In this document: positions 2,119 through 59,477 of the stretch, one piece after another
How the letters are laid out: every line of letters begins with the position of its first letter
Numbering within the stretch: position 1 is the stretch's first letter
Source: Frischella japonica
GTDB lineage: Bacteria; Pseudomonadota; Gammaproteobacteria; Enterobacterales; Orbaceae
DNA length: 64,000 bases
Direction: 5' to 3'
Assembly (NCBI RefSeq): GCF_014489845.1
Contig: NZ_JABURY010000008.1
Span: forward strand, 1 to 64,000
The notes under the pieces: generated by a model
The model's input: the letters and a program-made list of their open reading frames with translations, nothing else
Databases searched by the model: none
What the model was told of the DNA's origin: nothing
Translations under genes and position numbers: made by a program

Positions 2119-2194
2119 GGGTTGTTAGCTCAGTCGGTAGAGCAGTTGACTCTTAATCAATTGGTCGCGGGTTCGATCCCCTCACAACCCACCA
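2119..2194 (+). tRNA. tRNA-Lys (anticodon CTT), integration site
   Basis: A full cloverleaf can be drawn. The acceptor pairs GGGTTGT with ACAACCC followed by ACCA. The anticodon stem GTTGA/TCAAT carries loop CTCTTAA, giving anticodon CTT, which reads AAG. The T arm is GCGGG-TTCGATC-CCCTC with one C:T mismatch at the second pair. CCA is encoded. The sequence is very similar to enterobacterial tRNA-Lys apart from the anticodon wobble base and T stem. The 3' end serves as attachment site for the downstream integrase. Confidence 0.93.
2172..2194 (+). repeat. attL core: 3' end of tRNA-Lys
   Basis: These 23 bases at the tRNA 3' end are repeated exactly at 16751-16773, defining the left and right ends of the integrated element. 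A third, longer copy with one base deleted is at 18806-18850. Confidence 0.88.
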
Positions 2195-2302
2195 CTCCTT
2201 AATTCATCCAAACTCAAAAACGTTCAAAAAACCTTTATATAACAAGCTTTATAGCTAATTTACTGTTTAACTAAGTTCAAGAAGATTTAGCGAAATTCAA
2301 AC

Positions 2303-2328
2303 TTTTATGTTATATATTATGTTATACG
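2303..2328 (+). repeat. Left integrase arm-type repeat
   Basis: A 26-base sequence containing TATGTTATA twice. It is repeated at 16673-16698 in the same orientation with 24 of 26 bases identical. The two copies lie just inside attL and attR, as expected for arm-type binding sites of a tyrosine recombinase; this copy also sits immediately upstream of int and may overlap its promoter. Confidence 0.6.
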
Positions 2329-2355
2329 CTCAAATATAACTTAAATTCGTATAAC

Positions 2356-3582
2356 ATGGTCAAGATTATAAAACCCCTAAATGATACTCAAATCAAGTCA
2401 GCCAAGCCAGAGGAAAAGGATTTTACTTTATCAGATGGCAATGGTTTATATTTATTAGTTAAGTCTAATGGCTCTAAAATTTGGCGGTTTAATTATATTA
2501 GTCCTGATTCAAAAAAACGTACATTAGTTAGCTTTGGTAGTTATCCAGAAATCACATTACTTAACGCAAGACAAAAAAGAGATGAATATCGTTCTTTGGT
2601 ATCTCAAGGAGTAGATCCACAACAGCATAAACAATCTATACAAATCCAAACAAAAAAAGAGAAAGATAATACATTTTATAAAGTGGCTGAAAGATGGCTT
2701 GAACAACAGAACTCAAGAGATATCACTAGTGGAACAATTAGGCGAATAAAAAATTCATTTGTTAATTATATTTATCCTATCCTTGGCGATATACCCGTCT
2801 CACAGCTAAAGGCAAAAGATTTTATTGAAGCTTTAAAGCCTCTTGAATGTGCCGGTAAACTAGATACAGTTAAGAGGATATCACAGCGAATTAATAGAGT
2901 AATGACTTATGCTGTTAACAATGATCTGATTGAATATAATCCAACGGGTAAAATAGGGGCTGTGTTTAAAGTCGCCCATAAACAAAATATGCCCTCGTTA
3001 CCTCCGTCAGAGTTACCAAGAGTTATGAAAGCTATTTCTTTGGCTAGTATTGAATTACAAACAAGATGCTTGATTGAGTGGCAACTACTTACCATAACAA
3101 GACCAATTGAGGCAGTATCTGCATTATGGAGCGAAATAGACCTAAAAAATGAATTATGGACGATACCTGCAGAGAAAATGAAAATGAGAAGAGATCATAC
3201 TATTCCACTAAATAAACAGGCAATAAAGATAATTGAGATAATGAAGCCTATTAGTGGTCATCGTGAATATGTCTTTCCAACATTAAAAGCACCTTTCAAT
3301 AAACATATGAATAAAGAAACAGTCAATACAGCATTAAAACGAATGGGCTTTAAAGGTGAGTTAGTTGCTCATGGCTTTAGGTCATTAGCATCTACAGCAT
3401 TAAATGAACATGGCTTTGATTATGATTTGATTGAAGTCTCACTTGCCCACGTCGATAGGAATGCAGTGAGAGCAATTTACAACAGAGCAACCTACCTAGA
3501 TAAACGTAGAGATATGATGCAATGGTGGGGGGATTTTGTAGAGCAAACTAGCCAAGGAAATATATCCTTGTCAGGTAGTTAA
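2356..3582 (+). CDS. int: Tyrosine integrase, P4-type
   Basis: A 408-residue tyrosine recombinase of the P4/CP4-57 family, which inserts elements into tRNA 3' ends. The N-terminal arm-binding domain contains the family pattern LSDGNGLYLLVKSNGSKIWRF (about residues 25-46) and FGSYPEITLLNAR. The catalytic domain shows ITRPIEAVSALW (first Arg), then the box II HGFRSLASTALNE with His and Arg, and a C-terminal tyrosine in VRAIYNRATYLDKR. It reads away from the tRNA, with the arm repeat between them. The length is normal and all catalytic elements are present, so it should be active. A strong terminator follows. Confidence 0.95.
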   Translation: MVKIIKPLNDTQIKSAKPEEKDFTLSDGNGLYLLVKSNGSKIWRFNYISPDSKKRTLVSFGSYPEITLLNARQKRDEYRSLVSQGVDPQQHKQSIQIQTKKEKDNTFYKVAERWLEQQNSRDITSGTIRRIKNSFVNYIYPILGDIPVSQLKAKDFIEALKPLECAGKLDTVKRISQRINRVMTYAVNNDLIEYNPTGKIGAVFKVAHKQNMPSLPPSELPRVMKAISLASIELQTRCLIEWQLLTITRPIEAVSALWSEIDLKNELWTIPAEKMKMRRDHTIPLNKQAIKIIEIMKPISGHREYVFPTLKAPFNKHMNKETVNTALKRMGFKGELVAHGFRSLASTALNEHGFDYDLIEVSLAHVDRNAVRAIYNRATYLDKRRDMMQWWGDFVEQTSQGNISLSGS

Positions 3583-3626
3583 TATTAAAACTATAAATTT
3601 AATTTTGTCATATTCACATATTTAAG

Positions 3627-3649
3627 CCAGTCAGTTAGACTGGTTTTTT
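3627..3649 (+). terminator. Rho-independent terminator after int
   Basis: CCAGTC-agtta-GACTGG stem followed by a T run, 45 bases after the integrase stop. Confidence 0.85.
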
Positions 3650-3690
3650 ATTGTCTCTTATATAAGAATTACTTTATATATATTTTTAAT

Positions 3691-3707
3691 AACACTAACA
3701 ACACTAA
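3691..3707 (+). repeat. Left copy of an end-proximal AT-rich repeat
   Basis: AACACTAACAACACTAA recurs as its reverse complement with one mismatch at 16559-16575, near the other end of the element. Both copies lie in gene-free AT-rich DNA with repeated AACA/TGTTA words. This could be an origin or iteron region for the P4-type primase-helicase; that is only a guess. Nothing else is recognised in 3650-3850. Confidence 0.4.
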
Positions 3708-3853
3708 TAACATAATATAATTGATTTATATATATTTTTTTTAGTGTTATTAAAAGATAATAATAACATATATGACATAAAATTATGCCATTAAATTGAT
3801 TCCAAATTCGTGCAGTTTCCTAAATGAGATCCTTTCCTTTGGCTAGCTAAATT

Positions 3854-3907
3854 CCACTAAATAGTGGTATTTAAAATGCATGTAATTTTATCCAGTAGTG
3901 GTATAAT
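3854..3907 (+). promoter_or_regulatory. Promoter with operator-like repeats
   Basis: A perfect inverted repeat CCACTA-aa-TAGTGG (3854-3867) is followed by a repeated word TAGTGGTAT at 3862-3870 and 3896-3904. The second copy overlaps a perfect -10 box TATAAT (3902-3907). No good -35 is seen, so an activator or repressor binding the repeat is plausible. It would transcribe the RNA element and the gene downstream. Confidence 0.5.
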
Positions 3908-3938
3908 TATATTCAAACTTATTTAATAGATTAAATTA

Positions 3939-4013
3939 GTTACGCCTAGGGTAGCTCCCGAACGTTCGTAACCCTAACGGACTGGCGTAACTTCACCGTT
4001 AGGGATTTTGTTT
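3939..4013 (+). ncRNA. Candidate antisense/attenuator RNA of C4 or P4-CI type
   Basis: Two mutually exclusive folds are visible. Fold 1 has GTTACGCC (3939-3946) pairing perfectly with GGCGTAAC (3984-3991), with TAGGGT and ACCCTA closing inside. Fold 2 has CCCTAACGG (3972-3980) pairing perfectly with CCGTTAGGG (3996-4004), followed by ATTTTGTTT, a terminator-like hairpin. This logic resembles phage P4 CI and P1/P7 C4 RNAs, which control early transcription of satellites and phages. The element sits between a promoter and the first gene after int. Family membership is inferred from layout and structure. Confidence 0.55.
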
Positions 4014-4030
4014 AAGGGAAGCAAATAGTA

Positions 4031-4870
4031 ATGTCAAATAAATTGTTTCAATTGAAAAAATATTTATCTATTGATGATACGGCTAAATTATTAAGTATTT
4101 CTTTGGGAGAATCTATAACCAATAAAGATATATTAGACTTAATTTTAGATAATCATATTTCTCTTAAAGTTAAAGCTACCCATTCGAAAGTAAAAGCTAT
4201 TCCATTATCAGTCTGTGAACCATTAGCAACCATGGGTAATCTCATTAAGATATATAAATCTGCAACTGATGACGAAATGATAGACGATGTAAAATGTGGT
4301 GAAAATTTTACTCGCAATATCAAATTAAAAGGGGATAAGCATTTTATTGTAGATTTAAGACTTAATGATTATTGGCTCTTTCCGATGATTGGGGGTAATA
4401 GATTAGCAATAGAAAACTATAAAAGAAAATTGAATGGTCAAAGCTCAATAGATTCTTTTGATGGTTATATTTATCTGAAGGGAGACAATGATTATTGCAA
4501 ATTATATACATTAAAGAAAGAAAAAAATCTTATGGAACTAGTTAGCGAACATCTAGATTATGACATAAATAATTATATACCAGCTACAGAAATTAATAAT
4601 GATATTGAGTTATTTATTGAGGCGGAAGAAATAAAGAAATTTGAACTATCATTATTAGATCATCCACAAGAAAAAAAACAAGATACAGAACCTACCAATC
4701 TTCAAATTGAGTTTATTAGAAATTTATTACTGTTGAAATATGGTGACAAAGCTATAGATAACCCAAGAAATTTTATTGAAAATAAGCGAAGTGAACTTGT
4801 AAAAGAATTTCAATTAAACGCCTTAAAATACCCGTCAGGTAAAATACTTGAAAGCTGGTTAAAAAAATAA
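4031..4870 (+). CDS. Unrecognised satellite early protein
   Basis: A 279-residue soluble protein; the ATG at 4031 follows an AAGGGAAG ribosome binding site. The N-terminus (YLSIDDTAKLLSISLGES) looks like a weak helix-turn-helix or excisionase-like segment, and the C-terminus is a Lys-rich helical region ending SGKILESWLKK. I do not recognise a family. It is the first gene of the regulatory module, directly below the attenuator-like RNA, so a regulatory or early role is likely by position. Confidence 0.7.
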   Translation: MSNKLFQLKKYLSIDDTAKLLSISLGESITNKDILDLILDNHISLKVKATHSKVKAIPLSVCEPLATMGNLIKIYKSATDDEMIDDVKCGENFTRNIKLKGDKHFIVDLRLNDYWLFPMIGGNRLAIENYKRKLNGQSSIDSFDGYIYLKGDNDYCKLYTLKKEKNLMELVSEHLDYDINNYIPATEINNDIELFIEAEEIKKFELSLLDHPQEKKQDTEPTNLQIEFIRNLLLLKYGDKAIDNPRNFIENKRSELVKEFQLNALKYPSGKILESWLKK

Positions 4871-4871
4871 T

Positions 4872-4907
4872 TTCGGAATTTCCGAACTGATTTTGGATAT
4901 TTCCAAA
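4872..4907. promoter_or_regulatory. Twin palindromic operators upstream of alpA
   Basis: Two adjacent inverted repeats share one plan: TTCGGAATTTCCGAA (4872-4886) and TTTGGATATTTCCAAA (4892-4907). The centres are about 20 bases apart, roughly two helical turns, typical for cooperative binding of a dimeric repressor or regulator. They precede the alpA start at 4973. Confidence 0.5.
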
Positions 4908-4972
4908 AACTAAAAAATTCTATCCTAAAATCCTCATTGTATTAAACATTATTAATTCAGTGAGGAAAAACA

Positions 4973-5155
4973 ATGCAATTAAATACAATACAAAAATACT
5001 ATTCCTTAGATGAACTAGCTTTAATGCTAGGCTGTTCAAAAAACACATTACGCTATAATCCTAAATTCCCTAAAGGTATTCAGTTATCAAAACGTCGAAC
5101 TGTTTATGATATAACCGAAGTACAAGCCTATTTAGAAAGCAACCGAGTACAGTAA
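4973..5155 (+). CDS. alpA: AlpA-like MerR-fold regulator
   Basis: A 60-residue DNA-binding protein with the winged-helix layout of AlpA/excisionase proteins: YYSLDELALMLGCSKNTLRYNP (helix-turn-helix), KGIQLSKRRTVYDITEVQAYLES (wing and last helix). AlpA proteins switch on excision and early genes in P4-like satellites and Gram-negative PICIs. It is preceded by GAGGAAAAAC and starts a tight operon with the next two genes. Confidence 0.8.
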   Translation: MQLNTIQKYYSLDELALMLGCSKNTLRYNPKFPKGIQLSKRRTVYDITEVQAYLESNRVQ

Positions 5156-5166
5156 GGGGGCTTTCA

Positions 5167-5454
5167 ATGACTTATTCAATCACTCCAGAACAACACAAAG
5201 CAACCAGAGATAAATACGGCATTCAATATGATCGCCTGGTTCGTGAAAATGAAAGATACAAAATTACTAGTATCGCCCGTTCTACTGCTTGGCAACTTGA
5301 GAAAGAGGGTAAATATCCATTAAGAAAATCGTTAGGTGCTAACTCTTGCGGTTGGTCATTAGTGGAATTACTTCACTGGATAGATAATCCGCCACCAGTA
5401 GAAAAGATTAATCAACCGACTAAACGCCGAGGATTTGCCAATGGGAGCTACTAA
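5167..5454 (+). CDS. Second AlpA-like DNA-binding protein
   Basis: A 95-residue protein with an AlpA-type core: ITSIARSTAWQLEKEGKYPLRKSLG, then SCGWSLVELLHWIDNPP. The SxxxxWxLEKEGKxPxPxxLG pattern and final W-x-x-x-E-L-x-x-W-I are typical of phage AlpA regulators. Start ATG follows AAGGGGG. Having two AlpA-like proteins in series is unusual; one may control excision and one transcription. It ends just before the antirepressor start. Confidence 0.65.
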   Translation: MTYSITPEQHKATRDKYGIQYDRLVRENERYKITSIARSTAWQLEKEGKYPLRKSLGANSCGWSLVELLHWIDNPPPVEKINQPTKRRGFANGSY

Positions 5455-5455
5455 G

Positions 5456-5980
5456 ATGATTGTTAAACAAGATGAATTAAGCGTAATTAAATTCGATGGT
5501 ATCGAAGTGCGAATTATTACTCGATTGGGCGAACCGTGGTTTATAGCAGCTGATGTTTGCAAGGCTTTAGAAATTAAGAATGTTACTAACGCAATTAAAG
5601 CACTAGATAAAAATGAGAATACCCTATGTTTAATAAAGGGTATTAAATCGGAAGCTGGTAATCCTATTTTCAATATTGTTTCAGAATCAGGATTTTATAA
5701 GCTCATTTCACGAAGTAGAAAAGCAACTCAACAAGGAACATTTGCTTATAAATTTAGTAACTGGGTATTTGGTGAAGTCATTCCAACTATTCGCAAAACT
5801 GGTGCTTATGGTGTGCCTTGGGCTTTCTTGAATGATCATGCAAAACGTGAAAAAGAATATCGCATTGAATCAAGCAGAAGAGGACGTAATTTAGAAGCTT
5901 GCAAAAAATGGAAAGCTAATTTAACCGCAGAGGAAAGGGCATTATGGGCAAAATACCAACCCGAATTGGCTTTGATATAA
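5456..5980 (+). CDS. BRO-N domain antirepressor-like protein
   Basis: About 174 residues. The first 110 form a BRO-N/antirepressor domain: KFDGIEVRIITRLGEPWFIAADV, later YKLISRSRK and FSNWVFGEVIPTIRKTGAYG, which are the diagnostic strings. The C-terminal 60 residues are basic and helical. ATG 5456 was chosen because GGGAG lies ten bases upstream and homologues begin near this point. Such proteins relieve repression of phage or satellite early genes. Confidence 0.85.
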   Translation: MIVKQDELSVIKFDGIEVRIITRLGEPWFIAADVCKALEIKNVTNAIKALDKNENTLCLIKGIKSEAGNPIFNIVSESGFYKLISRSRKATQQGTFAYKFSNWVFGEVIPTIRKTGAYGVPWAFLNDHAKREKEYRIESSRRGRNLEACKKWKANLTAEERALWAKYQPELALI

Positions 5981-5982
5981 AT

Positions 5983-6009
5983 AAAAAAGGCAACCTGTCA
6001 CAGTTGCCT
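5983..6009 (-). terminator. Terminator for the minus-strand RHH gene
   Basis: Read on the minus strand: AGGCAAC-tgtgacag-GTTGCCT followed by TTTTTAT. On the plus strand there is no T run. It therefore terminates transcription coming from the minus-strand gene at 6340-6173. Confidence 0.7.
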
Positions 6010-6172
6010 CTATTCAATCACTCAAATCAATTAACAAGGAATTTTCAATGACAATAAAACTTACTAGATGCATTGAATTTGTGCCAAAGCGTCACGCATT
6101 TAAAGCACGTTTTTATAATAGCGCAGAGTTAATAAAGTGGGTAGATTTCGGAAGCGTTCGAAAGGATTTTAG

Positions 6173-6340
6173 TTATTTATCTAATAATCCTCGTGAAGCT
6201 AATTCTTTGCGGAGTATTCTTTTCATCCAGCCAGCAAGCGATTCGTCGCCATCTTCTTTTTGTGCTTTTTCCATGGCAAGCCGTAAATCAGGATCTAATC
6301 TAAATTGGAATGGTGGATTTCCTCGTCTTTTTTCTGTCAT
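6173..6340 (-). CDS. Small ribbon-helix-helix-like regulator
   Basis: A 55-residue product on the minus strand: MTEKRRGNPPFQFRLDP at the start, then a helix with MEKAQKEDGDESLAGWMKRI and KELASRG. The FQFRLDP strand followed by two helices is a ribbon-helix-helix plan common in small phage regulators. A minus-strand terminator downstream (5983-6009) supports transcription in this direction, divergent from the Icd-like operon. It lies antisense to an open plus-strand frame, which I regard as noncoding there. It is a plausible lysogeny-type repressor of the element. Confidence 0.7.
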   Translation of the reverse strand: MTEKRRGNPPFQFRLDPDLRLAMEKAQKEDGDESLAGWMKRILRKELASRGLLDK

Positions 6341-6420
6341 GTGTATTGACACCTCTATTACGTTAATGGTAATGTATTTATGTGTGATGACATATTACTA
6401 TCACATGAAAGAAAAAACAA

Positions 6421-6460
6421 TCCCCCGAAGTGGTGGAACACTATCGAGGGATCTAACCCA
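6421..6460 (+). promoter_or_regulatory. Structured leader hairpin upstream of the Icd-like gene
   Basis: TCCCCCGA (6421-6428) pairs with TCGAGGGA (6444-6451) with one mismatch, enclosing an inner stem AGTG-gtggaa-CACT. It is followed by ATCTAACCC and then GGAG before the Icd-like start. In P1/P7 and P4-like genomes the C4-type antisense RNA lies directly upstream of icd; this has the right place and shape. A divergent TTGACA (about 6345) lies upstream. Confidence 0.5.
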
Positions 6461-6482
6461 AGCATTATACGGAGTAATGATT

Positions 6483-6701
6483 ATGGCTAACCGCTATGAT
6501 AACGCACACCTATGTGCAAGACAATCCAAACTATACAAATTCTATGACCTATCAACGGCTCAAGTAGTACAAACAAAGGCAACAACCGAACGTGAAGCCA
6601 GAAAGAATTTAGGTAAGCAATCCCTGATATTTATTTCAAGAATCCGCTTATATCCATTCATTGAAGACACTAGAAGCTTTGGAGGTTATCTTTATGAGTA
6701 A
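6483..6701 (+). CDS. Icd-like host division inhibitor family protein
   Basis: A 72-residue protein (an ATG two codons earlier at 6477 is also possible; GGAG precedes both). The core KATTEREARKNLG...SLIFISRIRL matches the pattern of Icd-like proteins encoded next to C4/AlpA modules in P1, P4 and related satellites, in which T-E-x-E-A-R is followed by a strand ending in R-I/L. The last eight bases overlap the next gene (ATGAGTAA), so translation is coupled. Function in this host is not shown. Confidence 0.6.
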   Translation: MANRYDNAHLCARQSKLYKFYDLSTAQVVQTKATTEREARKNLGKQSLIFISRIRLYPFIEDTRSFGGYLYE

Positions 6702-6927
6702 TAATAATATTCAGATAATAAATAATATCGAAGCTAAATTAGCGCAAACTCAAAGCATGGTTAAGGTGGTCTTGGATAATCATAATTATAAAGATGAGGG
6801 ATTGGATAAGCCTTTCATGGAACACTGCGATACAGGTAACTTACTTTGGGTTATAGGTGACTTAATCGAAGATGCCTATAAAGAACTATTAAAAATTGAT
6901 TTCAAAGGAGGTAATAATAATGGCTAA
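6694..6927 (+). CDS. Unrecognised small satellite protein
   Basis: A 77-residue acidic helical protein. The start ATG at 6694 has GGAGG eight bases upstream and overlaps the Icd-like stop. The pattern of an N-terminal helix (IEAKLAQTQSMVKVVLDN) and a C-terminal IGDLIEDAYKELLK resembles the following gene, so the two may be diverged duplicates. No known function. Confidence 0.65.
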   Translation: MSNNNIQIINNIEAKLAQTQSMVKVVLDNHNYKDEGLDKPFMEHCDTGNLLWVIGDLIEDAYKELLKIDFKGGNNNG

Positions 6928-7141
6928 TACCTCACTGGATGCGATAGATACAATTAACTCTAAACTCGGTCAAGCCAATGCTATTTCAATTCTCTTAATG
7001 ATTGAGTGTGATTCTGGAAGTCAGCTAAATGATGAACTACGTTCTTATGCCCTTAGCGCCATATCTGATTTAGTTAGTGATTCTAAAGCCTTATTTAGAA
7101 GCGAGACAGAACGTAAGGGGTTGCAAGATGAAAATAAGTGA
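6920..7141 (+). CDS. Unrecognised small satellite protein, paralogue-like to the previous one
   Basis: A 73-residue helical protein beginning at ATG 6920, which overlaps the previous stop by eight bases (ATGGCTAA) and follows AAAGGAGG. The layout SLDAIDTINSKLGQANAISILL...ALSAISDLVSDSKALF parallels the preceding gene. It overlaps the primase start at 7128, so the three genes are translationally coupled. No function assigned. Confidence 0.65.
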   Translation: MANTSLDAIDTINSKLGQANAISILLMIECDSGSQLNDELRSYALSAISDLVSDSKALFRSETERKGLQDENK

Positions 7142-9527
7142 TATTACGACCCAAGCTGTAGGTAAATGGGATTATATTTTGCATTCATTAGGCATTGAAG
7201 TAGGTAATGGCAAGCATTGCGCTTGCCCAGTTTGTGGCGGTAAAGATAGATTTAGATTTGATAATCAAAATGGACGAGGTACTTATATTTGTAATCAATG
7301 TGGTAGTGGTGACGGCTTAGAACTGATTAAGAACTATTACCATCATAGTACTAAAGAAGCATCAATCAAAGTGGCGGAATGTTTGAATCTGCCTAATCAG
7401 AGTAACCAAATACGAGAAAAAACCGTATTTAGAAAAAGAGATTCCGAACAGTTGCATAATAACAACATACCAGAAAATTCCGTATGTAAAAAAGTCGAAT
7501 ATTTACTCTCTAAAACAACATTAGGGCAATCTGAGTACCTCACCAAGAAAGGATTAATCTTTGACTTACCTTTACTGGATAACGGGCGTATTTTTGCGCC
7601 TATTCTGAATCTTCATAATGAATATGCAGGCGGTCAGTTTATCGAACCTGACGGCAGTAAACACTTAATGAAAAGCTCAAGCAAAAAAGGGGCTTTTATT
7701 TTAGTCGGCTCAATTTTGAGCAAGCCAGAGGAGGTGTGTGCAAAATTGCTCGCACATAATGAAATTATTATCTGTGAGGGTTTAGCCACAGGAATATCGA
7801 TAGCGGAATTCCGTCATCAGTCTCTTGTTATATCAGCCATTGACGCAGGTAATCTTATTCATGTCGCTAAGTCTATCCGTGAAATAAATTCTACTGCTAA
7901 AATCATCATAGCCGGTGATAATGATATTGACCAAAGCCCGAATAAGGGCTTAGCTAAAGCAATGGAAGCAGCTCAAGCAGTCAATGGCTATTACTCGATA
8001 CCTGAAACGGATTTTAAAGCAGATTGGGATGATTACAGGCAACAATTTGGACTTGAAAAAGCCAAGCAGGATTTTAACAAGAATATTAAAAAATCAATTA
8101 AAGAGAGTAAGAAGCATTTTACCGAAGTTAAACAAAAAGCTGTTCCTGACTTATCACAAATGCAAGCTAGCCAGAAAGCTGATGTACTGATAGAGCATTA
8201 TGATAATAATCTCGCCTTAGATATGTTAACAAATGAAGTTTATTTATATAAGGATAATGTTTGGCAAATAATTTCTGAAATGGATCTAAAGCGTGAATTA
8301 GTTCAATTGTTCAGACAATCAAATGCTCACTATTCTGAAAAAGGCATTAAATCGACCATTGACACCATGAAATTACAAATACCGTTGAAAGGAGATCAAG
8401 CCAGAAATTTAATAGGATTTAGAAATGGTATCTTTGATTTAAATGATCGTGCATTTAAACCCCATGCCAAAAGACATTGGTTACAGTCAATTAATAATGT
8501 TGATTATGTTGATAGTGTAACTAATGAAAACTTGGAACTTCATGCACCTAATTTTTATCAATGGCTATCTCGTTCAGCTAAAAAAGATAAGATAAAAATG
8601 GATGCGATAAAGGCAGCGCTATACATGATTTTAGCTAATCGTTATGACTGGCAATTGTTCATAGAGGTTACGGGCGCAGGTGGTAGCGGTAAAAGTGTTT
8701 TTGCTGAGATTGCCACCATGCTAGCAGGCAAGAATAATACTGTATCGGCTAATATGGAAGCCTTAGAAAAACCAAGGGAAAGATCGCTTATTGTTGGGCA
8801 ATCATTGATCATCTTACCAGACCAAGCAAAATATATCGGTGAGGGTAACGGTATCAAGGCAATTACTGGGGGTGATGATGTAGCCATAGATGAAAAATAT
8901 AAGAAACCTTATTCTGCCAAAATTCAGGGAGTTATATTAGCCATTAACAATAATCCAATGACATTTAGTAATGATGATGGAGGCATTTCCAGACGAAGAG
9001 TGATCTTTCACTTTGGCGAGCCTGTCCCTGCTAACGAAAGAGATCCTAATCTTAAAGATAAAATTAGTGCAGAATTATCCGTTATTATTCGACATCTCTT
9101 TAACTATTTTGAGGATGATAGCAAGGCTAAATCATTACTAATTAAGCAACAAAAATCATCAGAAGCTATCGAAGTTAAAAGATTGACTAATCCATTAATT
9201 GATTTTTGTAGTTATCTCTTTGCAACCGACAAACCAGATGGAATGATGATAGGTAAATACTCAACACCAGTACAGTTTAAGCGGTTTTTATATCATGCTT
9301 ATATTACTTTTATCGAAAATAATAACTTAAAAAATCCATTATCACTTCGTAACTTTGTTAATGCACTACCTTCAGCAATGAAAGAGTATGATGTAGAAGT
9401 CATTATACGAGCTAGACAAAGTGAAGGACGCAGAACTAACTTACATCTTGATTATGATAAATGTAATGACTGGTTTCCTGATGCAGCATTAGAAGAAAAT
9501 TACATTTCACAACATAGGGGGAAATAA
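7128..9527 (+). CDS. P4-type primase-helicase (Pri-Rep)
   Basis: A 799-residue multidomain replication protein. Residues 1-65 hold a primase zinc ribbon (CPVCGGKDRFRF and CNQCG, Cys 33/36/55/58). A TOPRIM-like segment IIICEGLATGISI lies near 215-227, with AGDND downstream. The C-terminal half is a D5/P4-alpha SF3 helicase with Walker A GAGGSGKS near 516-523 and Walker B ILPDQA near 560. P4 alpha combines primase, helicase and origin recognition, letting satellites replicate independently of the host initiator. ATG 7128 was chosen because the zinc domain starts there and AAGGGG precedes it. Confidence 0.92.
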   Translation: MKISDITTQAVGKWDYILHSLGIEVGNGKHCACPVCGGKDRFRFDNQNGRGTYICNQCGSGDGLELIKNYYHHSTKEASIKVAECLNLPNQSNQIREKTVFRKRDSEQLHNNNIPENSVCKKVEYLLSKTTLGQSEYLTKKGLIFDLPLLDNGRIFAPILNLHNEYAGGQFIEPDGSKHLMKSSSKKGAFILVGSILSKPEEVCAKLLAHNEIIICEGLATGISIAEFRHQSLVISAIDAGNLIHVAKSIREINSTAKIIIAGDNDIDQSPNKGLAKAMEAAQAVNGYYSIPETDFKADWDDYRQQFGLEKAKQDFNKNIKKSIKESKKHFTEVKQKAVPDLSQMQASQKADVLIEHYDNNLALDMLTNEVYLYKDNVWQIISEMDLKRELVQLFRQSNAHYSEKGIKSTIDTMKLQIPLKGDQARNLIGFRNGIFDLNDRAFKPHAKRHWLQSINNVDYVDSVTNENLELHAPNFYQWLSRSAKKDKIKMDAIKAALYMILANRYDWQLFIEVTGAGGSGKSVFAEIATMLAGKNNTVSANMEALEKPRERSLIVGQSLIILPDQAKYIGEGNGIKAITGGDDVAIDEKYKKPYSAKIQGVILAINNNPMTFSNDDGGISRRRVIFHFGEPVPANERDPNLKDKISAELSVIIRHLFNYFEDDSKAKSLLIKQQKSSEAIEVKRLTNPLIDFCSYLFATDKPDGMMIGKYSTPVQFKRFLYHAYITFIENNNLKNPLSLRNFVNALPSAMKEYDVEVIIRARQSEGRRTNLHLDYDKCNDWFPDAALEENYISQHRGK

Positions 9528-9529
9528 AT

Positions 9530-9862
9530 ATGAAAAGACTAGCAGATATTTATAATAGATTGATTGAATTAGGAAAAAAAATAGATGCAAGTTATCCAAA
9601 ATACAAAAAAGATGATGACATAAAAATGGAATATGCAGATATTAAAAATGATATTAGAAAATTACAATCAGCTTTGCGTAAAAAGGTTAATAAAAACGAA
9701 GCAACACGCGAAGAAGAATACATTATTGAGCCTGCACTCAATCAAGCGTATGTTTCTGATTTGAGAGCTCGAATAGGGTGTAATGTAGGACAATCAATGG
9801 CTGATTCTGTATATTCTGCACAAAGCACAATCATGCATTATTTACCTGAAAATTTAAAATAA
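9530..9862 (+). CDS. Unrecognised small protein after the primase
   Basis: A 110-residue charged, probably coiled-coil protein, starting two bases after the primase stop with GGGGGAAATAAAT upstream. The first 70 residues are a Lys/Asp/Glu-rich helix; the rest contains EPALNQAYVSDLRARIG. It closes the replication operon. I know no family. Confidence 0.6.
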   Translation: MKRLADIYNRLIELGKKIDASYPKYKKDDDIKMEYADIKNDIRKLQSALRKKVNKNEATREEEYIIEPALNQAYVSDLRARIGCNVGQSMADSVYSAQSTIMHYLPENLK

Positions 9863-9928
9863 TTTTGTTCTGATGCTTTCAGAGGGATTTTACCTAACCA
9901 ATTGAATTAACAATAGTATTTTTTTTTG

Positions 9929-9987
9929 TTAGACTGCTTTTTGGGTTAATAGAAAAACCAATAATTAGCGCAGATATGGCAGTCTAA
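9929..9987. promoter_or_regulatory. Long inverted repeat upstream of the capsid operon
   Basis: TTAGACTGC (9929-9937) is matched exactly by GCAGTCTAA (9979-9987) with 41 bases between them, which also contain GGTT/AACC. It lies in the 220-base gap between replication and structural genes, where late expression would be controlled. It could be an RNA hairpin or a bipartite operator. Confidence 0.5.
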
Positions 9988-10084
9988 AACCAAAGCGCAG
10001 CACCTTTTATAGTTTAATCGCTATCACCTTTCAAAGCCTTTCATATCTCGCTGTAAATAACAATAAATACAGGTAAATAAAGAT

Positions 10085-11242
10085 ATGAAAAAACTTATTG
10101 AATTACGTCAATTAAAAGCAACCAAAGTAGCTGAAATGCGATCAATGCTTGATAAAGCCGAGCAAGAAAATCGCAGTATGACCCCAGAAGAAAAAACACA
10201 ATTCGACACCATTAAGGCAAAAGTAGAAGAGTTAAACACCGAAATTACAAACTATGAAACCTTAGCCAACGAAGAGCGTAGCCTTGCGGATAAAGCTAAA
10301 CCAATTGATAAAAAAATCACTAACGAAGAATTACGCAACTATATCCGTACTGGTGAGGCTCGTTCACTTTCTACTGGCGTTCCTGCTGATGGTGGTTATA
10401 CGGTTATTCCTGAGTTAGATAAGGAAATCATGCGCCAGTTATCGGATGAATCCGAAATGCGTGCTATCTGTACCGTCAAAAAAATTGGCTCAAATGAGTA
10501 TAAAAAACTGGTATCGGTAGGTGGTGCAGTAGTTAATCATGGCGAAGAGGGAACAGCTCGAACAGAGACAGCTACCCCTAAACTTGAAGAAGTATCAATC
10601 AAATTATACCCAATTTATGCTTATCCTAAAACGACTCAAGAAATCTTAGACTTTAGTGATCTAGATGTTTTAAGTTGGTTAACTGATGAAATCAAGGATA
10701 CTTTTGTCGAAACTGAGGAATTAGACCTTATCAGTGGTGACGGCACGAAAAAAGCTAAAGGTTTTCTTGCTTATCCGCAAGCAGTAAAAGCAGATAAAGA
10801 TCGTCCATTTGGTACTCTTGAAAAAATGACAATTACCGCAATCACGGCTGATAGTTTGATTGATTTACTTTTCAAACTTAAAAAGAAATACCGTAAAAAT
10901 GCTGTATGGGTAATGAACTCAAATACTGCAGCAACATTACAAAAACTAAAAAATGGTAATGGTGATTATATTTGGCGTGACGGATTAAAAGCAGGTGATC
11001 CTGATATGCTTTTAGGTAAACCTGTTCATTATTTGGAAAATATGAATGATACAGGCGCAGTCGTTGCCGTTGGTGATTTTAAAAGAGGTTACTACATTGT
11101 AGACCACGAAACAGGTGTAAGAACTCGTCCAGATAATATTACAGAACCAGGATTCTATAAAGTTCACACTGATAAGTATTTAGGTGGTGGTTTGGTTGAT
11201 TCTAATGCTATCAAAATCTTAGAACTATCAGCAAATAAATAA
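10085..11242 (+). CDS. HK97-type major capsid protein
   Basis: A 385-residue capsid protein with the HK97 gp5 plan. It has an N-terminal delta domain of charged coiled coil (about residues 1-90, EQENRSMTPEEKTQFDTI), normally removed by the prohead protease. The mature fold begins near STGVPADGGYTVIPE (about 115), a nearly universal signature of this family. Further blocks are EMRAICTVKKIGSNEYKK and WVMNSNTAATLQKLKNGNG, then PVHYLENM. It heads the structural operon, followed immediately by its protease and portal. Confidence 0.95.
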   Translation: MKKLIELRQLKATKVAEMRSMLDKAEQENRSMTPEEKTQFDTIKAKVEELNTEITNYETLANEERSLADKAKPIDKKITNEELRNYIRTGEARSLSTGVPADGGYTVIPELDKEIMRQLSDESEMRAICTVKKIGSNEYKKLVSVGGAVVNHGEEGTARTETATPKLEEVSIKLYPIYAYPKTTQEILDFSDLDVLSWLTDEIKDTFVETEELDLISGDGTKKAKGFLAYPQAVKADKDRPFGTLEKMTITAITADSLIDLLFKLKKKYRKNAVWVMNSNTAATLQKLKNGNGDYIWRDGLKAGDPDMLLGKPVHYLENMNDTGAVVAVGDFKRGYYIVDHETGVRTRPDNITEPGFYKVHTDKYLGGGLVDSNAIKILELSANK

Positions 11243-11247
11243 TAACA

Positions 11248-11266
11248 GGGGCTATATGCCCCTTTG
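11248..11266 (+). terminator. Weak hairpin between capsid and protease genes
   Basis: GGGGC-tatat-GCCCC followed by only TTTG. It may act as a partial terminator or 3' stabiliser giving more capsid than protease and portal transcript. Confidence 0.5.
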
Positions 11267-11274
11267 AGGTTGAT

Positions 11275-11829
11275 ATGGATAAGAAACAATATGAAATAAG
11301 AAGCACTGAGATATCACGAGATGATACTAAGCTTGTGGGTTATGTGGTTAAGTGGAATAGCCGATCACAGTTAATATGGGGTGAATTTTATGAGCAATTT
11401 TCGCCAAAAGCCTTTAGCCAATCATTAAGCAAAAATCCTGATATTCGCGCTTTATTTGAACATGACCACAAAGCACTATTAGGTCGGACAACATCTAATA
11501 CATTAATTCTTAATGAGGATGATATCGGGCTAAGATTTGAGCTTACACCACCCGACACACAATTAGGACGTGATTTACTCGTTAGTGTTGATCGTGGTGA
11601 TATTCGCGGTATGTCGTTTGGTTTTATGGCCACAACTGAATCATGGGATTTTAATCAAGAGCCTTGTATCAGGACTGTAAATACTGCTGAACTATTCGAA
11701 GTAACTGTTACAAGTATGCCAGCCTACCAAGAAAGTGATATCCAAATCGCTAAACGCTCAATGCTTGAAGCTAAAGCTAAATTAAAACCAGATTTAAGCA
11801 AAGCATGGCTTGACCTTATGGAGTTATAA
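11275..11829 (+). CDS. HK97-type prohead maturation protease
   Basis: A 184-residue serine protease of the HK97 prohead protease family (herpesvirus-assemblin fold). The catalytic His is in ALFEHDHKALLGRT (near 64) and the catalytic Ser in DIRGMSFGF (near 114), with the usual E in TAELFEVTVTSMPAYQ. It cleaves the capsid delta domain during head maturation. It lies between capsid and portal and starts after a GAGG site. Confidence 0.93.
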   Translation: MDKKQYEIRSTEISRDDTKLVGYVVKWNSRSQLIWGEFYEQFSPKAFSQSLSKNPDIRALFEHDHKALLGRTTSNTLILNEDDIGLRFELTPPDTQLGRDLLVSVDRGDIRGMSFGFMATTESWDFNQEPCIRTVNTAELFEVTVTSMPAYQESDIQIAKRSMLEAKAKLKPDLSKAWLDLMEL

Positions 11830-11831
11830 GC

Positions 11832-13031
11832 ATGGGATTATTTAGCCGTAAGAAGAAAGAAGAGCGAAGTATGACGGTAGACGAGTTAATCTCTTATCTT
11901 GGCTTGCCTAATACCAATTCGGGGGAATATGTCTCACCCAGTTCTGCCGAAGCATTGCCTGCAGTGATGAATGCTGTCACGGTAATTAGTGAAGCGGTTG
12001 CTTCTATGCCGTGTTATCTCTATAAGCTTAATAAAAAGGGCGAACGTGAACGAGTATCAACTCATCCGGTTGAATATTTGCTTAATGAGATGCCAAATAC
12101 CAAGCAAACACCATACCAATTTAAGCGGACTATGATGCGACACTGTTTATTAGGGGGTAATGCTTATGCGGTTATTCATTGGGGTAAAGACGGACGACCT
12201 AATGGACTTGAAAGCTTTCCACCTTATGCAGTTACCCCAAAACGATTAGGAAATGGACGTTATGCTTACTCGATTGTTGATGAGGACGGCAATGTCACAA
12301 ATTACTTACAAGATGAAGTATTACATTTGCGTTATGCAAGTGATGACGGTTTTATCGGGCGTTCACCTGTGACAATATGCCGTGAAGCTATAGGATTAGG
12401 GCTTGCGCAACAACGGCATGGGTCATCGGTCATGAAAAATGGTTTAATGGCCAGTGGTTATGTTTCAATGGCTGAATGGATGGACGATGCAAAAGGCAAA
12501 AAAGCCCTAAACGCATTAGAACGCTACAAAGGTGCAAAGAACGCAGGTAAAACCCCAATTCTTGAGGGTGGCATGAAGTACGAGCAATTAGGTATGAGTA
12601 ATCAAGATGCTGAGTGGTTGCAGAGCAGACGATTTACAATTGAGGATATCGCTCGAATATTCAATATTAGCCCAATGTTTATACAAGAATATTCGCATAG
12701 TTCATACAGTAACTTTTCAGAAGCAACACGCTCATTTTTAACATTAACGCTAAGGCCATGGCTAACTAACTTTGAACAACAATTAAAAGACGCCTTGATG
12801 ATAGATGTTAGCGAAGATAAAAGCCGTTATTTAATTGAGTTTGATACCTCCGATCTGATGCGGACCAGTCCGATAGATCGCTTTAACAGTTATAACATTG
12901 CGATTAAATCAGGGGTAATGAATCCTAATGAAGCAAGGTTAAAAGAGGGATTACTACCTTATGAGGGCGGTGAAGAGTTTAGTCAGGCATGGAAGCAAAC
13001 CGTAGAAGTTAAAAAGGATAATGCCAAATGA
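11832..13031 (+). CDS. HK97-type portal protein
   Basis: A 399-residue portal, which forms the dodecameric DNA channel at one head vertex. Typical blocks are AVTVISEAVASMPCYLYK, HCLLGGNAYAVIHWG, LHLRYASDDGFIGRSPV and RRFTIEDIARIFNISPMF. The gene starts two bases after the protease stop and overlaps the next gene by four bases (ATGA). Length is normal for the family. Confidence 0.94.
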   Translation: MGLFSRKKKEERSMTVDELISYLGLPNTNSGEYVSPSSAEALPAVMNAVTVISEAVASMPCYLYKLNKKGERERVSTHPVEYLLNEMPNTKQTPYQFKRTMMRHCLLGGNAYAVIHWGKDGRPNGLESFPPYAVTPKRLGNGRYAYSIVDEDGNVTNYLQDEVLHLRYASDDGFIGRSPVTICREAIGLGLAQQRHGSSVMKNGLMASGYVSMAEWMDDAKGKKALNALERYKGAKNAGKTPILEGGMKYEQLGMSNQDAEWLQSRRFTIEDIARIFNISPMFIQEYSHSSYSNFSEATRSFLTLTLRPWLTNFEQQLKDALMIDVSEDKSRYLIEFDTSDLMRTSPIDRFNSYNIAIKSGVMNPNEARLKEGLLPYEGGEEFSQAWKQTVEVKKDNAK

Positions 13032-13360
13032 TTATAGGACGGTTAAGACAGCGTATTACCTTACAGAAATTCGAGAGCTACCGAGATCCATTTGGCCAAG
13101 TTATTAAAGAGTGGAAAGACATAGCAACTGTATGGGCTGAGGTCAAAGCAGTAACAGGTAAAGAGCTTATGTTATCTCAGCGAGAAATGAGCAGTACTAC
13201 TATAAGAATTTATATTCGCTACCGTAAGGATATTGATACCACTTGGCGGATTAAGCACCTGATAGTTGGCTCACAATATTTAAATATCAAAGCAGTATTA
13301 CCTGATGCCAGAAAGACTTATTTAGAATTGTTATGTGAAGGTGGTTTAAATGATAACTAA
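13028..13360 (+). CDS. Head-tail adaptor (SPP1 gp16-like)
   Basis: A 110-residue protein of the head closure/adaptor family: IGRLRQRITLQKF at the start, then WAEVKAVTGKELMLSQRE and DIDTTWRIKHLIVG. These proteins cap the filled head and make the docking surface for a tail. It overlaps the portal stop and the next start (13350). Keeping a connector without any tail gene means tails must come from elsewhere. Confidence 0.88.
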   Translation: MIIGRLRQRITLQKFESYRDPFGQVIKEWKDIATVWAEVKAVTGKELMLSQREMSSTTIRIYIRYRKDIDTTWRIKHLIVGSQYLNIKAVLPDARKTYLELLCEGGLNDN

Positions 13361-13646
13361 TATTACCTTACAAGAAGTTAAGTTACATTGTCGCATTGAT
13401 GAAAGTGACACCTTAGAAGATAGTTTACTTCAAGTCTATATAGATGCAGCCCTTGAAGCTTGTCAAAAGCATATCGGTAAATCATTTGATAAACAGGAGT
13501 TTACTCCAGCAATCAAAGCAGGTTGCCTTATGTATATTGCTCACCTATATGAGAACAGAGAAATGGTTACCACTAATGCAGTAAACGAAGTACCGTTAGC
13601 CATATCTTCACTATGGAGTGTTTACCGTGACCCAGCTATCTATTAG
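13350..13646 (+). CDS. Head-tail connector (gp6/gp15-like)
   Basis: A 98-residue protein with the DNA-packaging connector signature: NITLQEVKLHCRIDESDTLEDSLL, then YIDAALEACQKHIG and AGCLMYIAHLYENRE. HK97 gp6-like proteins form a ring below the portal. Overlaps the adaptor by 11 bases, so the two are coupled. The family often has the order of the two connectors reversed in full phages. Confidence 0.88.
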   Translation: MITNITLQEVKLHCRIDESDTLEDSLLQVYIDAALEACQKHIGKSFDKQEFTPAIKAGCLMYIAHLYENREMVTTNAVNEVPLAISSLWSVYRDPAIY

Positions 13647-13653
13647 GTGAGTA

Positions 13654-14022
13654 ATGCCAATACAGCCATTAAGACGTTGCTCATATCCTAACTGTCGTAA
13701 CCGTGTTAAATCGGGACGATGTAACGAGCATAGAGCAGGTAAAGAACAGGATAAGGCACGAGGAACTGCAGCACAGAGAGGCTATAACCACAGATGGCAA
13801 ATATATCGAGCTGAGTATCTCAAGCATAACCCATTATGCAAGATGTGTAAGGATAAAGGATTACTAACTCCTGCTACTCTGATAGACCATATCAAACCTG
13901 TTGAGTATGGGCAAAGAGATCCTTTCTTTTGGCAAGCAAGTAATCATCAACCATTATGCCGTGATTGCCATAGCTATAAGACAAGAGTAATCGATAAACG
14001 AGGATTTGGGTCATCTTCATAA
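13654..14022 (+). CDS. HNH endonuclease of the packaging module
   Basis: A 122-residue HNH nuclease. It has zinc-binding cysteines in CSYPNC (8-13) and CKMCKDKG, the HNH motif core LIDHIKPVEYGQ with His-His, and NHQPLCRDCHSYKTR. In cos-type HK97 phages an HNH protein works with TerL to cut the cos site, and its gene sits beside terS as here. Starts eight bases after the connector stop. Confidence 0.92.
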   Translation: MPIQPLRRCSYPNCRNRVKSGRCNEHRAGKEQDKARGTAAQRGYNHRWQIYRAEYLKHNPLCKMCKDKGLLTPATLIDHIKPVEYGQRDPFFWQASNHQPLCRDCHSYKTRVIDKRGFGSSS

Positions 14023-14061
14023 TAAAGACAACTGATAGCAGTCCTCAGATATGATGAGTGG

Positions 14062-14142
14062 GTAGGGGGGAATGTTCAAAGAAATTCAAAAAGCTAAAAG
14101 ACCACCCCCCTCCTCAAATTTTTACGCACGGTGATTTTTTAG
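14062..14142 (+). other. Candidate cos / packaging site
   Basis: The 142-base gap between HNH and terS contains GGGGGG (14065-14070) and CCCCCC (14105-14110) as the arms of a large potential stem. These are followed by the compact palindrome-like stretch TTTTTACGCACGGTGATTTT (14119-14138). In HK97-like cos phages the cohesive-end site lies at this place between the HNH and small terminase genes. Assignment is by position and structure. Confidence 0.5.
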
Positions 14143-14164
14143 AAAGTAGAGGAAAAACAAATAA

Positions 14165-14509
14165 ATGAAAGCACCAAAATATTTAGATAAATTAGCCAAA
14201 GAGCAATGGAAACTTAGAGCCGACCACTTAGCACAGCGTGATGATATTCAACCGGCCGATTGGACTAACTTAGAATTGTATTGCGTTAATTATTCAATGT
14301 ATCGCAAAGCTATGGAAGACATTGCAAAGCGTGGGTTTTCAATCGTTAATTCACAAGGCACAGAAAGCCGTAATCCTGCATTAAGTGCTAAGTCAGAAGC
14401 TGAAAAAATTATGATTAAAATGGCTTCATTACTTGGATTTGACCCAGTAAGCCGTCGTAAAAATCCTGTAGAAGCCGAAGAGGAAGACGAGCTTGACCGC
14501 TTGGCATAA
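14165..14509 (+). CDS. terS: Terminase small subunit (P27 family)
   Basis: A 114-residue DNA-recognition subunit of the packaging motor. The order of elements fits the P27 small terminase family: helix LDKLAKEQWKLRADHL, DWTNLELYCVNYSMYRKA, then GTESRNPALSAKSEAEKIMIKMASLLGFDP, which is the family signature. The C-terminus is acidic (EAEEEDELD). It overlaps terL by 17 bases. Confidence 0.92.
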   Translation: MKAPKYLDKLAKEQWKLRADHLAQRDDIQPADWTNLELYCVNYSMYRKAMEDIAKRGFSIVNSQGTESRNPALSAKSEAEKIMIKMASLLGFDPVSRRKNPVEAEEEDELDRLA

Positions 14510-16160
14510 TTACGCATTATCCGTTAAAAATGGGGATATTCCTGCTTGCAAACGCTTAAAACAAGCGATTAACCGCTATTTTATTGATTTAGATAATCCT
14601 ATTTATTACTTTGATAGTGAAGTTGTCAGCAAGTTTATTTCTTTTTCTAAAGTCTGCCCACATGTCAAAGGTCATCTAAGAGCTAAACCTATTGAGCTTG
14701 AGCCTTGGCAACAATTTTTATTCGCCAATCTGCTAGGATTTAAGCACGTTAAAACTGGACTTAGAAAGTATCGTAGTGCCTATGTACAAGTACCGAGAAA
14801 GAACGCTAAATCAACAACAGCGGCAATACTGGCTAACTGGTTTTTAGTTATGGAGAAAGGGCAACAAGATATCTATACTGCAGCCGTTAGCCGTGACCAA
14901 GCCCGAATCGTATTTGATGATGCTAGGCAAATGGCAATACTTAGCAAGCCAATAAAGAAAAGGGTCACCATTCAACAGCATAAAGTGATCAACCCTAAGC
15001 AAAATAGCCTATTACGACCTTTAGCATCAAAAGCAGCAACTATTGAGGGGACTAACCCTAGTTTATCCATTGTAGATGAATACCATTTACACCCCGATAA
15101 CAGCGTATATTCAGCCCTTGAGCTAGGTATGGGGGCTAGACCTGAGGGCATTTTATTTGCTATTACCACCGCAGGTAGTAACACAATATCAGCGTGTAAA
15201 CAGCATTATGATTATTGTTGCCAGATTCTAGAGGGTGATGAAGTTAACGAATCACAATTAGTGCTTATTTATGAATTAGACGACGAGAACGAGATTGATA
15301 ACCCTGATTTATGGATTAAAGCCAATCCTAACCTCGATATTTCAGTGGATAGGGTAGCCTTAGAGGACACTATTAAGAAAGCCAGAGGTATACCCTCCCA
15401 GTGGGTTGAAATGCTCACTAAACGCTTTAATATTTGGTGTAATGGGGCTACACCTTGGGTAAATATTGGAAGTTGGGCAGAGTGTAAGGCTGATTATTCG
15501 GAAGATGATTTAAACGGCTTAGATTGTTATGCCGGATTAGATTTATCATCCACCAGTGATATTACTAGCGTCTGTTATTCATTTCCGTTTGAAACTGAGG
15601 TTAGATTATTAACCAGGCATTATATTCCTGAATTTCAGCTTAATAATGTGGCTAACAAAAATAGGGAAATGTACCGTAAATGGGTTAATCAGGGTTGGAT
15701 TCGAGTAACCAAAGGCGATTGTATCGATTATGACCAAATTCGAGATGATATTTTAAAAGACAGTGAGCAGTTTAATATTAAGTTAATAGGCTTTGACGTG
15801 TGGAACGCCACACAATTAAGAACCCAATTACAGAACATCGGCTTAGATGTTGAGCCATTTCCCCAAACTTATGCACGTTATAGCCCAACTTCAAAAACGG
15901 CCGAGGTATTTATTAGCCGTAAACGCATTAATCACAATGGTGATCCGGTACTCTCTTGGGCGGTAGGTAATGTGGTTATGGAAACGGATGCTAATGCCAA
16001 CATTAAACCAAATAAAAAGAAAGCAGCCAACAAGATAGATCCTGCTGTTGCTTTCCTCATGTCATTTGGTACTTACTTGCTTGAGTACGGCGAGGTCGAT
16101 ATCAACCTATCGGATGAACAAAAACAAGCGTTAGATGAGTTTAAGGGTATTGAGTTATGA
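14493..16160 (+). CDS. terL: Terminase large subunit
   Basis: A 555-residue packaging ATPase/nuclease of the HK97 type. The ATPase domain has Walker A-like VPRKNAKSTTAA (near 101-112), Walker B LSIVDEYH (near 190), and the coupling motif FAITTAGSN. The RNase H-like nuclease domain has CYAGLDLSSTSDITS (near 347), LIGFDVWNATQL and NKIDPAVAF near the end. It begins at TTG 14493 inside terS after AGGAAGA; no upstream ATG fits. It is the last gene of the capsid-packaging operon. Confidence 0.95.
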   Translation: MTAWHNYALSVKNGDIPACKRLKQAINRYFIDLDNPIYYFDSEVVSKFISFSKVCPHVKGHLRAKPIELEPWQQFLFANLLGFKHVKTGLRKYRSAYVQVPRKNAKSTTAAILANWFLVMEKGQQDIYTAAVSRDQARIVFDDARQMAILSKPIKKRVTIQQHKVINPKQNSLLRPLASKAATIEGTNPSLSIVDEYHLHPDNSVYSALELGMGARPEGILFAITTAGSNTISACKQHYDYCCQILEGDEVNESQLVLIYELDDENEIDNPDLWIKANPNLDISVDRVALEDTIKKARGIPSQWVEMLTKRFNIWCNGATPWVNIGSWAECKADYSEDDLNGLDCYAGLDLSSTSDITSVCYSFPFETEVRLLTRHYIPEFQLNNVANKNREMYRKWVNQGWIRVTKGDCIDYDQIRDDILKDSEQFNIKLIGFDVWNATQLRTQLQNIGLDVEPFPQTYARYSPTSKTAEVFISRKRINHNGDPVLSWAVGNVVMETDANANIKPNKKKAANKIDPAVAFLMSFGTYLLEYGEVDINLSDEQKQALDEFKGIEL

Positions 16161-16448
16161 CAGTGATATTGTTGCTAATAATAGCATAAAAATTATCCAT
16201 GCAATAGCGATAAAAACTACTATTCTTGTTATTTTATCATCATCTTCTGATACGATTTTTTTTACATGGGGTATCGCCCATATACCCCATAGAAAAATAT
16301 TAGTTCCAATAAGAGTGATTGCAGTATCTAACAATGGTTTTTTATCATATAGGACGATACTAGCAACAGTAAACAAAACAAAGGGCGTTGCATTGTTTAC
16401 ACTTTCAACCATTAATTCACAAAATTTAGTTATTCCTATTTTTTTCAT
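16155..16448 (-). CDS. Small three-helix membrane protein, accessory cargo of the satellite
   Basis: A 97-residue protein convergent with terL, overlapping its last six bases. Three hydrophobic segments are visible (about residues 20-38, 43-60, 72-94), split by a charged loop HVKKIVSEDDDK. The ATG is preceded by AAAGGTG, an excellent ribosome binding site, and a plus-strand open frame over the same region lacks such a site. It sits between the packaging genes and attR, the position where PICIs carry cargo such as phage-interference genes. Function unknown. Confidence 0.65.
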   Translation of the reverse strand: MKKIGITKFCELMVESVNNATPFVLFTVASIVLYDKKPLLDTAITLIGTNIFLWGIWAIPHVKKIVSEDDDKITRIVVFIAIAWIIFMLLLATISLS

Positions 16449-16750
16449 TTTATCACCTTTCGATTTATAATAATTTATTAAATACTACCATGTTATTAAT
16501 AACATACAACACTATAATAACACGAGGTTAATTTATTGATTATTTTATATAAATTTTGTTAGTGTTGTTAGTGCTGTAAAATCACAAAAATAAACTTTTC
16601 CTTTTAATCTTTCAGTTAGTCATTGGTGAATATTACTAATAATTTGATAATGATTTTAATATATTAAAACGATTTTATGTTATATGATATGTTATACGGA
16701 AAATTATAAATTTATGAATATGAATTTAAATTAATTAGTTAATTTGATAA
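16449..16750. other. AT-rich right-end region of the island
   Basis: No gene. It contains repeated TGTTA/AACAC words including 16559-16575, the near-exact reverse complement of 3691-3707, and also a direct similarity to 3720-3745. The arm-type repeat (16673-16698) and attR follow. Confidence 0.45.
16673..16698 (+). repeat. Right integrase arm-type repeat
   Basis: 24 of 26 bases are identical to 2303-2328 in the same orientation; it contains TATGTTATA plus ATGTTATACG and lies 52 bases left of the attR core. Confidence 0.6.
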
Positions 16751-16773
16751 TTCGATCCCCTCACAACCCACCA
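16751..16773 (+). repeat. attR core
   Basis: An exact 23-base copy of the tRNA-Lys 3' end (2172-2194), marking the right end of the integrated satellite. Confidence 0.88.
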
Positions 16774-18703: not shown

Positions 18704-18805
18704 ATGGCGGTTGAGTTAATTAATATAGCATTTTATTAGCGTTTATTAGTTTTATAACTTATTGATAAATTTGTAAGTTATTGTTTTTTATGGCGTGTTC
18801 AGGGC

Positions 18806-59462: not shown

Positions 59463-59477
59463 AGCTGGGAGTCTTTA

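Follow-up and report, generated by a model that had tools for sequence, protein, structure and literature searches.

An intact-looking capsid-forming PICI in a tRNA-Lys gene of an Orbaceae genome, with close relatives in Gilliamella

We analyzed a stretch of 64,000 nucleotides of bacterial DNA (the window) and found that it carries a 14.6-kb element, integrated in the 3' end of a tRNA-Lys(CTT) gene and spanning positions 2172–16773, which is almost certainly an intact-looking capsid-forming PICI (cf-PICI), a known kind of satellite. Islands of this type bring their own genes for capsid, protease, portal, connectors, TerS, TerL and HNH, and need a helper only for tails (PMC10690885). The satellite family itself is known, and the class has already been recognized as widespread in Gammaproteobacteria; the new parts are the Orbaceae membership, the spread between genera and a candidate cos site.

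The ends of the element are marked by the 23-bp repeat TTCGATCCCCTCACAACCCACCA, which is exact at both att cores (Table 1; chance expectation 0.00) and has no third copy within the whole window, even with up to 2 mismatches allowed. The first-pass annotation had described exact att repeats at these ends, an integrase, AlpA-like regulators, a primase-helicase, and a full HK97 head and packaging set with intact catalytic motifs and no tail or lysis genes. Its coordinates and gene list proved right when compared with the tRNA call, the repeat search and the family scans (Pfam and PHROGs for the integrase, the regulators and the primase-helicase). Beyond the element, the 3' end of tRNA-Lys recurs at 18806–18850 as a 46-bp near-copy (98%) beside broken integrase pieces, and this region (18214–18850) is the remnant of another, older element in the same tRNA-Lys. 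Positions 19370–21937 encode a VgrG-type spike protein of type VI secretion (PF05954, PF13296), followed by genes without assignment, and a two-gene AbiL-like defence system is present at 58215–60230 (PADLOC: AbiLi 8e-82, AbiLii 8e-26).

Table 1. Features of the element and its integration site, with positions in the window.
Feature	Position	Strand	Evidence or remark
tRNA-Lys (CTT), integration target	2119..2194	+	ARAGORN; final 23 bases are attL
attL core TTCGATCCCCTCACAACCCACCA	2172..2194	+	exact repeat
Tyrosine integrase, 408 aa	2356..3582	+	PF00589 5e-29, PF13356, phrog_1
279-aa protein, accessory position between int and alpA	4031..4870	+	no Pfam, PHROGs, PADLOC or NCBIfam family
HTH_17 regulator	4973..5155	+	PF12728 1e-5, slightly below curated cut-off
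AlpA regulator	5167..5454	+	PF05930 2e-12, phrog_2790
BRO-N / Ant-type antirepressor-like protein	5435..5980	+	PF02498 1e-16, phrog_2593 2e-52
Arc-like repressor, candidate lysogeny repressor	6173..6352	-	phrog_228 4e-4
Icd-like protein, start codon uncertain	6396..6701	+	NF033153 1.8e-6, exceeds cut-off
Primase-helicase Pri-Rep (zinc ribbon, Toprim, D5)	7125..9527	+	PF08273, PF13362, PF08706, PF19263, PF03288; phrog_2249 2e-132
110-aa protein, position variable among relatives	9530..9862	+	no Pfam, PHROGs, PADLOC or NCBIfam match
HK97-fold major capsid protein	10085..11242	+	PF05065 1e-66; 67.6% identical to PDB 9gyi
Prohead protease (S78)	11275..11829	+	PF04586 1e-47, phrog_80
Portal protein	11832..13031	+	PF04860 3e-96, phrog_12
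Head closure Hc1	13028..13360	+	PF05521 8e-27, phrog_25
Head-tail adaptor Ad1	13350..13646	+	PF05135 7e-13, phrog_40
HNH endonuclease	13654..14022	+	PF01844, phrog_144
Candidate cos site CTCAAATTTTTACGCACGGTGATTTTTT, non-coding and conserved	14113..14140	+	between HNH and TerS
Terminase small subunit (P27 family)	14165..14509	+	PF05119 3e-25, phrog_83
Terminase large subunit (TerL)	14493..16160	+	PF20441, PF03354; phrog_9 2e-170
97-aa membrane-type protein	16155..16448	-	found in 2 examined Orbaceae relatives
attR core, attL copy without any mismatch	16751..16773	+	exact repeat

Each of the eight genes for heads and packaging (capsid, protease, portal, Hc1, Ad1, HNH, TerS and TerL) was matched by families. 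By reading of the sequence, the TerL motifs RKNAKST, VDEYH and D350/D435/D516 are intact, as are those of the HNH endonuclease, the R-HxxR-H-Y residues of the tyrosine recombinase and the Walker A of the D5 domain. Scans of the element ORFs against Pfam, PHROGs and NCBIfam detected no tail or lysis family; a few small ORFs without assignment could in principle encode such a part. A tail terminator in the element was considered and rejected, as a lambda gpU-like gene was matched in no Orbaceae copy. In Pasteurellaceae cf-PICI relatives, the capsid gene is immediately preceded by one for a tail terminator resembling lambda gpU (PF06141; 1e-19 in Pmp8), at L076 4899–5297, L003 1–408 and about 11 more loci; these gpU-bearing satellites supply one tail part themselves.

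The regulatory region holds three genes to be added to the list of the first-pass annotation, for the minus-strand Arc-like repressor, the BRO/Ant-type protein and the Icd-like protein. In Pmp8, too, the annotation includes a homologue of the Arc-like repressor on the minus strand, and the HTH_17 regulator is 75–77% identical in most Gilliamella copies. A small satellite gene (window 6673–6927) has a 45% identical homologue adjoining tail genes of a resident prophage (L155 18512–18742). Within the element, PADLOC gave no convincing match to defence cargo.

The class assignment follows from gene content, gene order, integration site, phylogeny and relatives. The element has the integrase, AlpA-type regulator, Pri-Rep, site-specific att and size (about 15 kb) of a PICI, together with the capsid, head protease, portal, head-tail connectors, TerS, TerL and HNH of its own that characterize a cf-PICI. 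P4-like satellites have no capsid or terminase and use helper heads, whereas this element encodes both capsid and TerL. It also lacks the layout of an ordinary HK97-like temperate phage (terS-terL-portal-protease-capsid, then a tail module). In each of the 59 relatives in which the full set of eight genes was detected, the head-gene order is the same as here, with the capsid first and TerL last; six reference phages have the reverse order, terminase-portal-capsid. The head genes of vB_KppS-Ant have the identical circular order, in a record opened just 5' of terS.

TerL is 71–77% identical to that of Enterobacterales and Pasteurellaceae satellites, but at most 35% to that of ordinary phages, and portal and capsid repeat this gap. 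Only five annotated phage records exceed 60% identity in TerL, four of which are two Pasteurella 'phages' (10.7 and 15.3 kb), vB_KppS-Ant (16.5 kb) and a Klebsiella record of 106 kb; real tailed phages follow at 35%. A search of one genome per species returned 113 loci with TerL relatives, and the 80 kept span 72–98% identity and include Gilliamella, Xenorhabdus, Proteus, Serratia, Klebsiella, Pasteurellaceae and others. In E. coli, relatives that span 80% or more of the gene are found in 522 of 5,426 genomes. The sequence of PDB 9gyi is that of the satellite capsid of E. coli O157:H7 OK1 (identical over 381 residues).

In phylogenetic trees the satellites form a clade apart from phages, with support of 100/100 for TerL (30 of 60 rows in the clade), 100/100 for portal (26 of 44) and 94/93 for capsid (29 of 38). 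The phage rows are long-branched, so that the trees do not single out an exact phage neighbour. The proteins of the element thus cluster with satellites, recognized here by their architecture and not from a published cf-PICI set, and outside ordinary phages. The capsid of one Vibrio satellite-plasmid has been found to group with gammaproteobacterial cf-PICIs, away from phages (PMC13230959). The sequence comparisons therefore support the cf-PICI reading proposed in the first-pass annotation, including its capsid-first, terminase-last order, and near-identical tail-less copies in Gilliamella agree with it. The Orbaceae host that had been supposed was likewise borne out: the host is placed with Gilliamella in this family, in a separate genus.

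Among 119 related genomes searched, full TerL copies with 94–98% identity were present in six genomes of the genus Gilliamella (wkB171, Pra-s52, App6-5, Choc4-2, wkB178 and G036), while every other full-length TerL in the family is at most 35% identical. The Gilliamella copies have the same gene order as the element and differ from it in integrase, cargo and small genes. Integration in tRNA-Lys is common to the window element, G036 and Pra-s52, the latter two copies being about 14.6 kb; App6-5 uses tRNA-Arg, and the copies of wkB178 and Choc4-2 adjoin tRNA-Met. In App6-5, hc1 is unrecognizable between portal and ad1 (L118 13871–13891), a natural deletion of head closure, and the Choc4-2 copy has lost the primase-to-portal genes. 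At least eight further genomes of the family hold only TerL fragments. The tRNA-Lys gene of the congener G001 was considered as an empty site, and rejected because it is occupied by a shredded relative. The fragments and this shredded relative indicate repeated gain and decay; many Orbaceae copies have decayed, and such elements can therefore die in these hosts. The copy studied here has no visible lesion.

Over 9,749 bp, the element shares 96.3% DNA identity with the copy of Gilliamella sp. wkB171, whereas the host backbones of the same pair share 73–77% (uvrB 77.5%, a 3.8-kb stretch 73%; UvrB protein 86%). For comparison, the uvrB DNA of the congener G001 is 82% identical. The difference between element and backbone indicates that the satellite crossed genera recently, long after the genera split. 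We tentatively suggest that closely related cf-PICIs actively circulate among Orbaceae genera (for instance Gilliamella and that of the present host), and that they cross the genus barrier by combining one conserved head and one conserved packaging site with tails from different helpers; we put the chance of this at somewhat below even. We found no paper that treats Gilliamella and cf-PICIs together; the founding cf-PICI papers lay outside this search, and elements from Orbaceae may already appear in the tables of those papers.

A non-coding block between HNH and TerS is common to satellites from Orbaceae to E. coli. We derived a degenerate 28-base pattern from it and allowed up to 4 mismatches for locus counts. 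The block is present in 71 of the 80 loci from genomes and in all 80 IMG/VR satellite loci; of the nine genome loci without it, four are truncated by the start of a contig. The 86 phage loci searched (0.98 Mb, up to 4 mismatches) lack it. IMG/VR holds 110 matches to the pattern; among the 80 listed, 79 have a satellite TerS 53–148 bases downstream and one ends at a contig edge. In addition, the ends of the vB_KppS-Ant record omit exactly 69 bp that contain the block, when placed on the copy of K. pneumoniae ATCC 13883. In HK97-type phages, HNH, TerS and TerL cut cos. We infer that the block is a candidate cos site, which would be cleaved by the HNH, TerS and TerL of the satellite.

The genome that carries the element was examined for a helper by family searches and in a few sequence stretches. 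The family searches identified no helper phage, and no match was obtained to PF10145, PF05939 or PF03237 (two siphophage tail families and one terminase family) that would mark a siphophage helper. A contractile-tail prophage module with sheath, tape measure, baseplate and fibre genes, cut by the contig end, is present on contig C8 (284.6–295.4 kb; L156 617–11428). This prophage is a possible helper. Within the family, 23 of 44 genomes carry minor tail genes of the lambda type.

Induction, packaging at the block, tail hijacking and the identity of the helper can be joined in a putative life cycle. The satellite would stay silent in tRNA-Lys until a helper phage enters or is induced, and would then be switched on by AlpA-type activation, as in Gram-negative PICIs, where AlpA turns the island on in response to the helper (PMC6092414). 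The Arc-like protein perhaps acts as a repressor, and the BRO/Ant-type protein may lift this repression. Int would excise a circle of 14,579 bp, to be replicated by Pri-Rep, while capsid, protease and portal would form the satellite's own heads. HNH, TerS and TerL would cut the concatemer at the block before terS and fill these heads. Hc1 and Ad1 would close them and offer a neck for the helper tail, and the resulting chimeric particle would deliver the satellite.

Homology of the HK97-type head genes to phage genes would also be expected of a defective prophage from which a recent deletion removed the tail and lysis genes, an origin that we consider extremely improbable. The block order is the reverse of that in phages and common to the relatives, TerL, portal and capsid form one clade apart from phages, and the element is compact (14.6 kb), its att sites are intact, and other genomes contain copies nearly identical to it. 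The first-pass annotation had named a capsid and terminase lying inside ordinary tailed phages as a sign of such a deletion, but both belong to one clade with the satellites. It had also named tail or lysis genes of the same element elsewhere in the genome; the family searches and the few stretches examined showed only the contractile-tail prophage module, on another contig. We reject the recent deletion because of the reversed gene order, the clade and the existence of complete relatives without tails. An autonomous mini-phage or a producer resembling a gene transfer agent, spreading without stolen tails, is suggested by the capsid, whose closest match among solved structures, 9gyi apart, is the capsid of the Rhodobacter gene transfer agent, a likeness noted before for cf-PICI capsids (PMC12846349). 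Gene transfer agents package host DNA, however, and the element carries an integrase, a primase and att sites of its own as well as a specific cos candidate; an adsorption module was not found in it. This reading, too, has very little probability.

The element could also be a cf-PICI by descent that is now immobile in this strain, a fossil, which we regard as unlikely though deserving consideration. The decay seen among Orbaceae copies, including the TerL fragments and the shredded copy in tRNA-Lys of G001, is in keeping with it, as is the lack of a match in the genome to the siphophage tail families tried. Yet the core ORFs are all open, the motifs intact and the att repeats exact, and the 96% DNA identity over 9.7 kb to the copy of another genus implies recent transfer. 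An intact-looking cf-PICI is therefore the reading that we retain.

These results place tail-stealing satellites in the Orbaceae, the family to which Gilliamella and Frischella, tractable symbionts of the honey-bee gut, belong. The finding of near-identical satellites in two genera, together with frequent decay, adds to what is known of the group, and the short packaging-site prediction is testable and applicable to all of it. In the honey-bee gut, viral units common to Frischella and Gilliamella have been reported (PMC12586679), and cf-PICI-type satellites could be the source of some of these.

Among known systems, the cf-PICI of E. coli O157:H7 OK1 (NZ_CP038313, between roxA and phoQ) shares architecture and order with the element (TerL 71%, portal 65%, capsid 66–68% and TerS 74% identical) and carries the candidate cos block with 1 mismatch. 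It differs in its integrase (only 22%), integration site, other small regulators and replication genes; we take it to be, probably, EcCIEDL933. The same gene set is found in vB_KppS-Ant (LR881103), an induced element of K. pneumoniae DSM 30104 (TerL 72%, portal 65%, capsid 68%, primase 51%), which differs in an additional 766-aa gene, annotated as tape measure, without Pfam match. It was recovered in a phage preparation made on that strain, whose chromosome it matches at >99%, and was named a filamentous ssDNA prophage (PMC8006926). Judged from its sequence, it contradicts this label, as its genes are cf-PICI genes throughout. The Vibrio cf-PISP satellite-plasmid TG54 resembles the element in having cf-PICI-type genes for heads and packaging, but is episomal, without island integrase and with plasmid maintenance genes (PMC13230959). 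EcCICFT073, a classical Gram-negative PICI, shares int, the AlpA activator, Pri-Rep and a size near 15 kb, but has no capsid, portal or TerL of its own and uses helper heads (PMC6092414).
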